The translations under genes and the position numbers were made by a program. From NCBI GenBank assembly GCA_013373425.1, contig JABXHW010000046.1, forward strand, positions 1 through 37,172: a stretch of 37,172 bases of DNA, given 5' to 3'. The notes under the pieces are model-generated. The model saw nothing but the letters and a program-made list of their open reading frames with translations. It was not told where the DNA came from and ran no database searches. The stretch comes from Flavobacteriia bacterium. Lineage in GTDB: Bacteria; Bacteroidota; Bacteroidia; Flavobacteriales; Schleiferiaceae. How positions within the stretch are numbered: the first letter of the stretch is position 1; the number at the start of each line of letters is the position of its first letter. Below are positions 13,736 to 17,385 of the stretch, piece by piece.

Positions 13736-13743
13736 TACCTTTG
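13736..13743 (+). promoter_or_regulatory. Bacteroidota-type -7 element for gldB-gldC
   Basis: TACCTTTG exactly matches TAnnTTTG and lies 30 bp upstream of the chosen gldB ATG at 13774. The in-frame TTG at 13741 lies inside this box, which argues against that TTG as the start. Confidence 0.5.
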
Positions 13744-13773
13744 CAGCGAAAATACAATAGTGTGAAGAGAACA

Positions 13774-14769
13774 ATGCGAATTTTCATTCTGTTCATCGGA
13801 CTTTCTGTTCTTTCGAGCTGTTCCGACAATCGTTGGGATGTTGATATTTCGGAAACACCTGAGCAGGTCACCATTTCGAACTACGCCGAAGCTCTCTACA
13901 CGAGTAGCGAAGAAAACTTCTATGCCGAACTGCCACGTTTGCGCGAAGAGTACCCGTTCTTCTACTCCGTGGGGGACAGCACCACTTGGCTGGGATATAG
14001 GAAAGATTCAGAATTGAAGGCCCTGTATCAAGATTCGAAAGTCGCCTTCACCCAAGAGGTGTATGAAGACATCACAAATCAGCTTCGCGATGGGTTCAAG
14101 CGCTTCGGCTATCACTTCCCAGAAGAGCAGCCCGTCACCCTATTCTTCTACCTTGACATTCCTACTCAGTTCAGTCTGTTAGACGATGGTGTTGAATACC
14201 TCGATACCATTCATTCCGTTTTCGTTCGTTTGGACAATTATCTTGGCCTGCAGCATCCGATGTATCGCCAAGCGATGCTTCCTCAATATGTAACCAGAAG
14301 ATTCACACCGGAACATATCCCGGGTGATGTATTTGAAGAGTTGGCTTACGACATCTTGCCCAACGAGGGTGAGGCCCCAGCTCTAATCGACGACATGGTG
14401 CGAAGTGGCATTGCTCGTTACTTCGAAATAGCCATGCTACCGAAGATTCCAGATTCACTTTTATTCGAGTTTACTCAAGATGAAATTGAGTTTTGCCAAC
14501 AAAATGAGGTGAACATTTGGACCTATTTCGTTCAGCAACAGCTTTTGTTTGATACGAGATTAGACACGAAGCAGCGCTTTGTTATGGAGGCTCCATTTTC
14601 AAAGTTTGGAACGGATTTCGACCAACAATCGCCTGGCAGAATCGCCGAGTGGATTGGATACCAAATTGTATCGTCTTACATGGACGAACACCCCGATATG
14701 AGTTTGAATCAACTCGTTCAAACCACTGATTATCAAAAGCTTTTCAGAGAATCTAAATATAAGCCCTAA
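13774..14769 (+). CDS. gldB: GldB, gliding motility lipoprotein
   Basis: GldB is a lipoprotein required for gliding in Flavobacterium; its exact biochemical role is unclear. The 331-aa product begins with a lipoprotein signal peptide whose lipobox is LSSC (Cys16). The rest matches the usual GldB pattern, including EENFYAELPRLREEYPFFY near the N-terminus, a YLDNYLG-like segment (VRLDNYLGLQHPMY) and GRIAEWIGYQIVSSYM near the end. Start 13774 places the signal peptide directly at the N-terminus. gldC follows one base after the stop, so the two are cotranscribed. Confidence 0.92.
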   Translation: MRIFILFIGLSVLSSCSDNRWDVDISETPEQVTISNYAEALYTSSEENFYAELPRLREEYPFFYSVGDSTTWLGYRKDSELKALYQDSKVAFTQEVYEDITNQLRDGFKRFGYHFPEEQPVTLFFYLDIPTQFSLLDDGVEYLDTIHSVFVRLDNYLGLQHPMYRQAMLPQYVTRRFTPEHIPGDVFEELAYDILPNEGEAPALIDDMVRSGIARYFEIAMLPKIPDSLLFEFTQDEIEFCQQNEVNIWTYFVQQQLLFDTRLDTKQRFVMEAPFSKFGTDFDQQSPGRIAEWIGYQIVSSYMDEHPDMSLNQLVQTTDYQKLFRESKYKP

Positions 14770-14770
14770 G

Positions 14771-15109
14771 ATGAGCAATTCACATAAATCTCAGATTGTA
14801 ATCGATATTGAACTCGACGTTAACCGCGTTCCAGAGAAAATCACCTGGGACGCTCCTGATGGCGGCGTGAGCAAAGCTCCAACCAAGGCCGTAATGATGG
14901 GCGTTTGGGATGAGAAAGCCAAAGAGCTTCTTCGCATCGATTTATGGACAAAGGACATGTTGATGGATGAGATGAAGCAGTTCTACCACCAGACCTTCCT
15001 GAGTCTAGCAGACAGCTTTGAGCGCGCCACCGATGAAAAGAATATGGCTGAGGATATGCGCGACTTTGCCGCTCACTTCGCGGACAAGCTCGACCTCATC
15101 AAGAAGTAA
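14771..15109 (+). CDS. gldC: GldC, gliding motility protein
   Basis: GldC is a small cytoplasmic protein that supports gliding in Flavobacterium johnsoniae. The 112-aa product has typical family segments VPEKITWDAPDGG, TKAVMMGVWD and LRIDLWTKDMLMDEMKQFYH. It has no signal peptide. It begins one base after the gldB stop, the classic gldB-gldC pair. Its stop is 2 bp from that of the convergent engB gene, with no terminator between them. Confidence 0.95.
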   Translation: MSNSHKSQIVIDIELDVNRVPEKITWDAPDGGVSKAPTKAVMMGVWDEKAKELLRIDLWTKDMLMDEMKQFYHQTFLSLADSFERATDEKNMAEDMRDFAAHFADKLDLIKK

Positions 15110-15111
15110 GC

Positions 15112-15744
15112 TTACTCCTTAACAAAATGACTCTTGGTCGCATCTATCATCTGATGGATGTAGGCCAAGATTTCAGTTCTACCAATCTTTGAAGACGCTG
15201 AAGTCTTGAACTGCGGCGGCAACTCCTCCCATCGCTGCAGCATCTTTTTCCCGTAAGCGGAAACATTCTTCTGCAGCTGATTACTACTCAGCTTATCAAT
15301 TTTCGTGAAGACAATACTGAAAGGAATTCCCTCTACACCGAGCATCTCCATGAATTCCAGGTCGTTTTTCTGTGGCTCATGACGACTGTCGATTAGCACG
15401 AATAAATTCACCAAGTTCTTACGATCCTTCACATAGTGGTTGATCATCCCCATGAACTTCTTTCTATCCTCCTTACTCACCTTCGCGTAACCGTACCCCG
15501 GAAGGTCAACTAGATACCACTCATCATTCACATTGAAGTGATTGATGAGCTGAGTCTTACCTGGCTTGCCACTCGTCTTTGCCAAATCCTTGTGGTTGAC
15601 CAACATATTGATCAAGCTACTCTTACCCACGTTTGAACGGCCGATGAAGGCGAATTCAGGACGATCGGGATCAGGACATTTATCCGCTCTCGGACTACTG
15701 ATGACGAATTCAGCTTTGTGAATGGGGAAAAGTTCTTTTGCCAT
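15112..15744 (-). CDS. engB: EngB/YsxC, ribosome-biogenesis GTPase
   Basis: EngB (YihA/YsxC) is an essential GTPase needed for assembly of the large ribosomal subunit. The 210-aa protein has the complete set of motifs: G1 GRSNVGKSS (35-43), a TSGKPGKTQ switch region (57-65), G3 DLPGYGYA (80-87), G4 TKID (147-150) and G5 TSASSKIG (181-188). It diverges from the dcw cluster across a 269-bp region holding MraZ-like boxes in both orientations. A TATCTTCG element lies 4 bp before its start codon. Confidence 0.95.
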
Positions 15745-15850: not shown

Positions 15851-15871
15851 TCTCCCCACTTTTCCCCACTT
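15851..15871 (-). promoter_or_regulatory. Pair of MraZ-like boxes, minus-strand orientation
   Basis: On the minus strand the sequence reads AAGTGGGGAAAAGTGGGGA: two GTGGGG boxes (plus-strand CCCCAC at 15854-15859 and 15864-15869) with an exact 10-bp period. MraZ is known to bind direct TGGG-type repeats with about one helical turn of spacing upstream of its own operon. The pair is opposite in orientation to the pair beside the mraZ promoter and faces engB, whose start is 110 bp away. Confidence 0.5.
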
Positions 15872-15952
15872 GCATATTTCCAGTATTTATCACACTTTTG
15901 GAGAGTCAACAATAAGACGATTACCTAAAAGTTATTAACACTAAGGCATTTG

Positions 15953-15967
15953 GTGGGAAAAAGTGGG
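15953..15967 (+). promoter_or_regulatory. MraZ operator (two GTGGG boxes, 10-bp period) at the mraZ promoter
   Basis: GTGGGAAAAAGTGGGAA contains two GTGGG boxes starting at 15953 and 15963, the spacing expected for MraZ operators. They lie 10 bp upstream of the -7 element at 15978-15985, where the -33 region would be. MraZ binding here would block RNA polymerase, giving negative autoregulation of the whole dcw operon. Confidence 0.7.
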
Positions 15968-15977
15968 AATGTATTTC

Positions 15978-15985
15978 TACTTTTG
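15978..15985 (+). promoter_or_regulatory. Promoter -7 element of the dcw operon
   Basis: TACTTTTG matches TAnnTTTG exactly, 28 bp before the TTG start of mraZ. A TTTG at 15949-15952 could be the -33 element, but the 25-bp gap is longer than usual. MraZ boxes lie between the two. Confidence 0.6.
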
Positions 15986-16013: not shown

Positions 16014-16484
16014 TTGAATCTCATAGGAGTACACGAATGCAAGATGGACGCTAAAGGGCGTTTGTTGCTGCCAGCTGCGCTAAAGAAGCAGTTACTGACC
16101 GTGTTGGAGCATGGATTTGTTTTGAAGCGCAGTGTATTCCAGAAGTGTCTGGAGCTCTACCCAATGACCGAGTGGAACGATGTGATGGGTCGAGTGAACA
16201 AGCTCAACCGCTTCGTCAAAAAGAATAATGACTTCATCCGCATGTTTACGGCTGGCGTCAAGGTGATCGAAATTGATAGCTCAGGAAGAATCTTGGTTCC
16301 GAAGGATTTGATGGCATTCGCCGGATTATCTGGACAACTCGTCTTATCCGCTTCGGTGGACATGATTGAGATTTGGGACAAAGACGCGTACGAATCTGTA
16401 CTCGACGATCCTGAGGTTGATTTTGCCTCCTTGGCAGAGGACGTAATGGGCGGTGCAAATAGTGCCGACCATGACCTATCATAA
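16014..16484 (+). CDS. mraZ: MraZ, transcriptional regulator of the dcw cluster
   Basis: MraZ is an AbrB/SpoVT-fold DNA-binding protein that forms rings and controls its own division and cell-wall operon. The 156-aa product has the two expected repeats: ECKMDAKGRLLLPAALKKQL near the N-terminus and VIEIDSSGRILVPKDLMAFA in the second half. The start is a TTG at 16014. An in-frame stop lies at 15990-15992 and no other standard start codon lies between it and the conserved LIGVHECK segment. It is the first gene of the dcw cluster; its 3' end overlaps rsmH by 14 bp. Paired GTGGG boxes lie just upstream. Confidence 0.95.
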   Translation: MNLIGVHECKMDAKGRLLLPAALKKQLLTVLEHGFVLKRSVFQKCLELYPMTEWNDVMGRVNKLNRFVKKNNDFIRMFTAGVKVIEIDSSGRILVPKDLMAFAGLSGQLVLSASVDMIEIWDKDAYESVLDDPEVDFASLAEDVMGGANSADHDLS

Positions 16485-17385
16485 GCCCGTACTTTTTGAA
16501 GAGTGCCTCGACGGGTTGAACATTAATCCAGCCGGCACGTATGTCGACCTCACTTTTGGAGGAGGAGGACACAGCCGGGGAATTCTCGAGCGACTCGGTC
16601 CAGATGGAAAGCTCTACGCCTTTGATCAAGACCCTGACGCTCACGCCAACGCAATCGACGACCCACGCTTCACACTCATCCCTCAAAACTTCGTTCTCCT
16701 CGAGCGATTTTTGCGTTTTTATAAAGCCATTCCCGTAGACGGTATCCTTGCCGACCTAGGTGTGAGCTCTCATCAATTTGATGAAGTGGAAAGAGGATTT
16801 TCCATTCGTGGAGATGCTGACCTCGACATGCGCATGGATACGACTACCGGAAAGACGGCAGCCGATATCCTTGCCGATTATGAGGAAAGCGAAATCGCCG
16901 ACATCCTTTACAAGTACGGAGAGATCAGAGCTTCGCGACCCATTGCACGTGCCATTGTCATGCGTCGTGAAGAAGAACCTATCGTTCGCGTGAACGACCT
17001 ACTGAAGGTGATTCAGAAGTGGACTCCAAAGTTCAAGGGGCACAAGTTCCAAGCTCAGGTTTTTCAAGCGCTTCGCATTGAAGTGAATCGTGAACTCGAA
17101 GTTCTCGAGCAAATGTTGGCCGCAACTCCCAAAGTGCTAAAAACGGGAGGTCGACTAGTCATCATGAGCTACCACTCCTTGGAAGACCGAATGGTAAAGC
17201 GATTCATTCGCGAAGGCGTATTCCAAGGCGAAGCCGAGCGCGATATGTACGGCAACCGCTTTGTCCCATTTGAACCTATAAACAGAAAGGCCATTGTAGC
17301 CGACGAAAACGAAATCACAGAAAACTCCCGTGCAAGAAGTGCACGATTGAGAATTGCCGAACGCACAGACTACGAAGTGAAATGA
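16471..17385 (+). CDS. rsmH: RsmH (MraW), 16S rRNA N4-cytidine methyltransferase
   Basis: RsmH methylates C1402 of 16S rRNA using S-adenosylmethionine. The 304-aa protein starts MTYHKPVLFEECLDGL, typical of the family. It has the SAM-binding segment YVDLTFGGGGHSRGIL (about 24-39), the acidic residue in YAFDQDPDA, and the conserved ILADLGVSSHQFD and SYHSLEDRMVKRF motifs. An in-frame GTG at 16453 would add six residues, but the ATG at 16471 matches the family start. It overlaps mraZ upstream and ftsL downstream (ATGA). Confidence 0.96.
   Translation: MTYHKPVLFEECLDGLNINPAGTYVDLTFGGGGHSRGILERLGPDGKLYAFDQDPDAHANAIDDPRFTLIPQNFVLLERFLRFYKAIPVDGILADLGVSSHQFDEVERGFSIRGDADLDMRMDTTTGKTAADILADYEESEIADILYKYGEIRASRPIARAIVMRREEEPIVRVNDLLKVIQKWTPKFKGHKFQAQVFQALRIEVNRELEVLEQMLAATPKVLKTGGRLVIMSYHSLEDRMVKRFIREGVFQGEAERDMYGNRFVPFEPINRKAIVADENEITENSRARSARLRIAERTDYEVK

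Follow-up and report, generated by a model that had tools for sequence, protein, structure and literature searches.

MraZ is a widely conserved bacterial regulator, and to our knowledge the reason for its ring formation and its mode of control over the division cluster are open questions. In the window, a stretch of 37,172 nucleotides, two pairs of MraZ-type boxes lie on opposite strands upstream of mraZ (Table 1).

MraZ has been described as an octameric toroid (accessible part of PMC7761207). Its boxes in Burkholderia cenocepacia are four repeats of seven nucleotides with a 3-nt spacer, hence a 10-bp period, and direct repeats also lie upstream of mraZ in Mollicutes (accessible parts of PMC7761207 and PMC8475190). 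The window resembles E. coli, B. cenocepacia and Mollicutes, as portrayed in those parts, in having GTG repeats upstream of mraZ, with MraZ regulating dcw. The sites described there form one series of repeats, whereas here two or three forward boxes are accompanied by a phased inverted pair 80-140 bp away. In place of a single block of about four repeats in one direction, the window has two strict forward boxes and the inverted distal pair.

Table 1. Features upstream of mraZ and adjacent genes, in window coordinates
Feature	Position	Strand	Remarks
engB/yihA GTPase	15112..15744	-	Pfam MMR_HSR1, ribosome-binding-type GTPase, presumed to be engB; predicted start 15744; divergent from mraZ here, other neighbours in some relatives
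Distal inverted MraZ box pair, GTGGGG-N4-GTGGGG	15854..15869	-	Boxes 15869-15864 and 15859-15854; GTGGGGAAAAGTGGG is the minus-strand pair at 15869-15855
Spacer within proposed loop	15870..15931	.	Sequence diverged among genera, length quantised
DnaA-box-like TTATTAACA	15932..15940	+	Fixed distance from forward array; missed in the initial annotation
Third forward box position	15943..15946	+	Reads AAGG in the window, a degenerate box; many relatives have GTGG
Proximal forward MraZ box pair, GTGGG-N5-GTGGG, GTGGGAAAAAGTGGG	15953..15967	+	10-bp period; boxes at 15953 and 15963
-7 box TACTTTTG (TAnnTTTG), mraZ promoter	15978..15985	+	Starts 15 bp after the start of the second forward box
mraZ	16014..16484	+	dcw cluster gene 1, predicted TTG start; Pfam and PDB matches
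rsmH/mraW	16471..17385	+	Next dcw gene; ORF, frame from ATG at 16471; name presumed from homology

The initial annotation had reported the plus-strand GTGGG boxes and the minus-strand GTGGGG boxes, and both were found exactly where it placed them. The pattern GTGGGN5GTGGG occurs twice in the window, and 100 shuffles gave a mean of 0.01 with none reaching 2. The same annotation called the arrangement head-to-head; the pairs actually stand back to back and point apart. The intergenic region between engB and mraZ measures 269 bp. Within it the first bases of the inner inverted box and the last forward box are separated by 94 bp, and the second forward box starts 15 bp before the start of the -7 box. 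The looser pattern GTGGN6GTGG was found 86 times in the 3.1-Mb genome and 87 times with a reversed control. As this count is at background level, the looser pair is uninformative alone, and the information is carried by context and conservation; a wider MraZ regulon could not be read from such genome counts.

The protein encoded by mraZ matched Pfam MraZ at 82.3 bits (cut-off 23) in two stretches, corresponding to two related halves. In the PDB it matched the solved MraZ chain 1n0e (E 6.3e-15) as well as 9qlr, 9qlg and 9sx6, and it is 91% identical to MraZ of Phaeocystidibacter luteus, a genus of the Flavobacteriales according to NCBI. The operon shows two features of an autoregulated dcw cluster: its first gene encodes MraZ, and its promoter carries GTG(G) repeats in direct orientation every 10 bp. 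Each of the 26 representative loci has a rightward -7 box (TAnnTTTG) whose first base lies 14-16 bp downstream of the first base of the last forward box. The proposal that the right pair serves autorepression of dcw fits these observations, and MraZ would bind and repress there. Immediately before engB, at 13741-15109, are gldB-like and gldC-like gliding motility genes (Pfam).

MraZ was present in 86 of the 88 genomes of the window's family, which yielded 87 loci. At 85 of them the forward array is strict, with GTGG repeated at 10-bp intervals, and the inverted pair was found at 48, in 13 genera, with genus g6 contributing 23 of the 48. A second distal pair oriented in the same way as the forward array was seen at one of the 87. 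The inverted pair was not found at 39 family loci, one of which (G027) has just 146 bp of upstream sequence; by this search it was absent from g3, g5, g10, g11, g12 and G019 (g18), and from two loci of g4, one in G031 and its near-copy in G067. Each of two order-level pattern searches covered 395 genomes, 76 of the window's family and 319 others. The strict pattern gave no inverted pair at mraZ in the 319 sampled Flavobacteriales genomes outside the family. The matches outside the family, in G204 and G182 alone, and a family match away from mraZ (G026) lie in stop-free frames of 313-561 codons, with no MraZ in the surrounding stretch. Since the inverted pair was not found at 39 family loci nor, by strict pattern, at mraZ in these 319 genomes, it is dispensable for dcw control in general.

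Forward and inverted boxes are alike: after GTGG the next base is G in most cases, and A-rich positions come next. The strict third forward box is missing in at least some members of seven genera having the inverted pair, and family loci with a strict array and no inverted pair never have fewer than three forward boxes. The distal boxes behave as if they replaced proximal ones, a pattern that is only suggestive. The 26 representatives are 25 loci outside g6 and one of its 23; one g6 locus was used for the promoter and period tests, three for the box comparison and five in the tree.

The distance D between the two arrays was measured from the first base of the inner inverted box to the first base of the last forward box. 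In the 13 family genera it falls into six classes: 81 bp (g6, 23 loci), 93-94 bp (g1, g2 and g14), 104 bp (g9), 114-117 bp (114-116 bp in g8, g15, g16 and g19, and 117 bp in one of two G028 pairs), 126-128 bp (g4, g7, g17 and G036) and 139 bp (G014 and G028). The g13 genus median of 133 is meaningless, being bimodal, and was left out, as was a second inverted pair in G066 at 241 bp (200-bp limit). A line through the class means, 81.3 + 11.49k, leaves no residual above 0.72 bp. The six classes gave p=0.003 when the period was left free from 9 to 13 bp, and p=0.0016 when class means were used. Loops formed in vivo by lac repressor fit 11.60 bp per turn at spacings of 57.5-155.5 bp, and 11.08 bp in another data set (accessible part of PMC1762422). 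At a fixed period of 11.6 bp, the published lac value, the six classes gave p=0.00035, at 11.08 bp p=0.0028, at 10.5 bp p=0.15, and at 10.0 bp p=0.81 with R=0.20.

The spacing changed several times on a tree of MraZ and RsmH (54 sequences, RsmH for 36). Nine spacing states assigned by eye on this tree gave R=0.95 and p=1e-4, again for any period from 9 to 13 bp, and the number of independent changes is rough, because deep nodes are weakly supported and 18 of the 54 sequences are without RsmH. Spacers of the same class share 22-48% identity between genera, so length is conserved more than sequence. The spacing controls were not perfectly clean. For the interval between outer box and engB, unpooled values reached p=0.006 with a period of 10.5 bp and p=0.044 with 11.6 bp; once near-identical values were pooled and the period was free, p was 0.096 (best 10.62 bp). 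For the interval between forward array and engB, p was 0.20 (best 11.40 bp). G028 (locus L006) has two inverted pairs, 22 bp apart and some 168-200 bp ahead of mraZ; with D=117 and 139, both are near the lattice.

Pattern searches across the class covered 149 genomes at one gap range and 395 genomes, 16 of them Flavobacteriales, at each of two gap ranges. At the latter two, 50 and 33 of the 395 genomes matched, as against 10 and 12 with the reversed pattern; these frequencies are lower bounds, since exact GTGG boxes were required. The two gap ranges are contiguous, so gaps in the spacing distribution are no search artefact. Reading of 75 matched loci placed MraZ beside the boxes at 64 (64 genomes, 18 other families; families outside the order carry labels from f17 to f92). 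The 11 loci without a MraZ match were dropped, and second matches in G777 and G611 were left out. The idea that the arrangement is an oddity of the window's family alone was overturned by these matches in 18 other families.

Before the class distances were measured, the lattice had been set from the data of the window's family, with a period of 11.487 and an offset of 81.29. Within each family, spacings separated by steps of 2 bp or less were pooled, and the 24 resulting family-level values agreed with the prefixed lattice with a mean cosine of 0.73 (p=5e-6, the simulation floor), 17 of them lying within 1.5 bp of it where 6.3 were expected. One median per family gave p=5e-6 and unique medians p=1e-5, even family medians being partly independent only, as the families are inter-related. 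All 36 distinct family-distance values, including second pairs, gave p=5e-6. Taken alone, the class set prefers 11.40 bp (p=0.0002, period free). Spacings more than 1.5 bp off the lattice were 102 (f49), 107 (f74), 113 (f25), 119 (f20, f35), 121 (f35), 129 (f68), 137 (f26, f75) and 145 bp (f24, second pair). Pooling for the 24-value test merged the 114-121 bp of f35 to a mean of 117 and so masked the off-lattice 119 and 121, which stand separately in the 36-value test; the second pair of G611 (145 bp) was excluded from the former and included in the latter.

Arrays of the same motif flank the spacer and are conserved together, and their spacing keeps one helical phase apart from the off-lattice exceptions, as in a looping repressor. 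The boxes, their orientation, conservation and phasing, and the position of the promoter can be read directly from the sequence. We consider it likely that MraZ bridges both arrays and loops the mraZ promoter. As a ring-forming repressor it would bind the forward boxes just upstream of the mraZ -7 box and, simultaneously, the inverted pair 80-140 bp upstream, so that one MraZ assembly would close a small loop of 80-140 bp with the promoter at its base. Such a loop would strengthen repression of mraZ and the dcw operon. Efficient looping would need both arrays on one face of the helix, and this requirement would explain why evolution held the spacing near an 11.5-bp lattice while spacer sequence and neighbouring gene changed. 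The loci at which no inverted pair was found, the off-lattice spacings and the imperfect controls speak against the loop. Inverted sites on a rotationally symmetric ring might be accommodated, speculatively, by parallel DNA arms or by two rings stacked face to face. The looping guessed at in the initial annotation has gained strong indirect support from the phasing, while MraZ binding, looping and repression themselves are what we infer. The retention of a phased distal operator across many families would give a reason for the multivalency of MraZ, and would make that multivalency directly testable by half-turn versus whole-turn changes of spacing.

The same phasing would be equally expected if the spacer were bent and MraZ at the inverted pair touched RNA polymerase, or another factor, for instance DnaA, on the forward array, and both the DnaA-like element and the -7 box do stand in near-fixed register with the forward array. 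We think such a contact unlikely. The inverted pair consists of MraZ-type boxes like those of the forward pair, and MraZ is multivalent by family (octameric ring, accessible part of PMC7761207); with MraZ-type boxes in both arrays and a multivalent protein, a bridge from MraZ to MraZ is the simpler reading.

The initial annotation also proposed that the left pair couples ribosome assembly to division through engB. On such a reading the inverted pair would be an ordinary MraZ operator of the divergent engB, giving joint control with no loop. The inverted boxes do point to engB, at 115 bp from its start in the window, and loci with the pair and a divergent engB occur in g1, g6, g13, g16, g17, g19 and part of g4. 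The left boxes are kept, as that annotation would have them, where engB is divergent (G019 is an exception), but they are also kept where engB is absent from that position, next to other neighbours of which Pfam identified nine or more. Six genomes have the inverted pair and, as the closest upstream gene that could be identified, one directed towards mraZ: a GDSL lipase (G010), urocanase (G063), inositol phosphatase (G064), WYL protein (G065 and G066) and glutamate dehydrogenase (G015). A seventh case, G009, has a long open frame upstream with propeller matches below threshold only. Divergent neighbours other than engB are HsdR-like (G062), an alpha/beta hydrolase (G008), a cNMP-binding protein (G023) and TIM (G021). 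These identities come from Pfam on ten ORFs, that in G066 being assigned by likeness to G065. The outer inverted box lies anywhere from 28 to 263 bp from an adjacent engB start, while the spacing between the two arrays remains quantised. Of the 26 representatives, one (G036) has a leftward -7 box no more than 40 bp from the inverted pair; four more (G002, G001, G008 and G033) have one at 70-95 bp. Neither neighbour, distance nor promoter ties the left boxes to engB. Because the pair is retained beside other neighbours and 25 of 26 representatives are without a near leftward -7 box, an engB operator is distinctly improbable, and the divergent co-regulation of engB and mraZ was rejected.

It is very improbable that the regular spacing is a by-product of scarce indels, common descent or slippage by whole 10-bp boxes: the 115-bp class is common to several families and may be ancestral, but spacer identity between genera is low, slippage predicts the 10-bp steps that the six classes do not follow, and the lattice replicates in other families with p of about 1e-5.

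The MraZ bridge that we favour has parallels in the lac and araC loops, which likewise combine two operators, one multivalent repressor and a preferred spacing; the lac helical repeat of 11.08-11.60 bp, in the accessible part of its source, is close to the 11.4-11.5 bp found here. The present case differs in its protein family and in having paired boxes in place of single operators. Looping is presumed here, and the phasing is read from evolution and not from a series of constructs. Among the matches listed from the open-licence literature, no title or start of an abstract described a distal MraZ operator that is inverted, a loop formed by MraZ, or a site for DnaA at mraZ. MraZ box repeats are already known, and, within that literature, the phased inverted distal operator is a new variant.

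The DnaA consensus box is TTWTNCACA. The element inside the proposed loop at mraZ has the TTWTNNACA core, and TTWTNNAC stands exactly two bases before the three-box frame at 131 of 162 loci (the family loci, unthinned, and other Flavobacteriales); 22 of the other 31 belong to g11, where in most cases the element is displaced by a single base. Unlike a canonical box it often has A at position 6 (100 of the 162 loci, with strict TTWTNCACA matches at 31), and it is a single site beside MraZ boxes, where DnaA binding is putative. At the class loci the element lies within 40 bp of the first strict box in 57 of 64 cases, at offsets near 11, 21 and 32 bp. TTWTNMACA was also found within 60 bp outside the inverted pair in five of 28 representatives (0.44 in shuffles, p=0.001), three of the five being g6. 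Single TTATCMACA sites number 82 in the window's genome, with 41 for the reversed pattern. Close pairs of TTATNMACA in 15 genomes were near background, 20 versus 16 reversed, and give no help to a DnaA reading.

In a congener (G001, L248 9977-10231) there is a cluster of DnaA-box variants, two copies of TTATCAACA with a single copy each of TTATTCACA, TTTTCCACA and TTTTCAACA. The cluster precedes a gene presumed to be rpiB, at a switch of GC skew (9 of 10 windows negative on the left, 6 of 7 positive on the right), as expected at oriC, and is a candidate origin. The same two TTATCAACA occur 24 bp apart in the window's genome (contig C63, L259 10329-10361). The candidate oriC cluster supports TTATCAACA as a DnaA-box variant here. 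A counter-case is G054, from another family of the order, which has a cluster of TTATCCACA and yet carries TTATTAACA at mraZ.

The DnaA-like element is possibly a DnaA input to the dcw operon. Lying inside the loop beside the forward boxes, it may let DnaA modulate the switch, a weaker proposal than the loop itself. We put forward tentatively, and with some doubt, a Bacteroidia-wide dcw switch in which MraZ would close the phased loop and DnaA, bound inside it beside the proximal boxes, would open or lock it. If true, a DnaA-MraZ switch would tie the expression of cell-division genes to replication initiation, and the element beside the MraZ boxes would make that coupling testable at one promoter. 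In f35, g128 loci (L274, L284 and L286; L285 and L288) have off-lattice spacings of 121 and 119 bp, and their DnaA-like element and first strict box are 22 or 21 bp apart. Several relatives, L051 and L061 among them, carry an extra GTGG 21 bp before the first forward box, beyond the DnaA-like element (GTGGTAAAACTTATTAACAAAGTGG).
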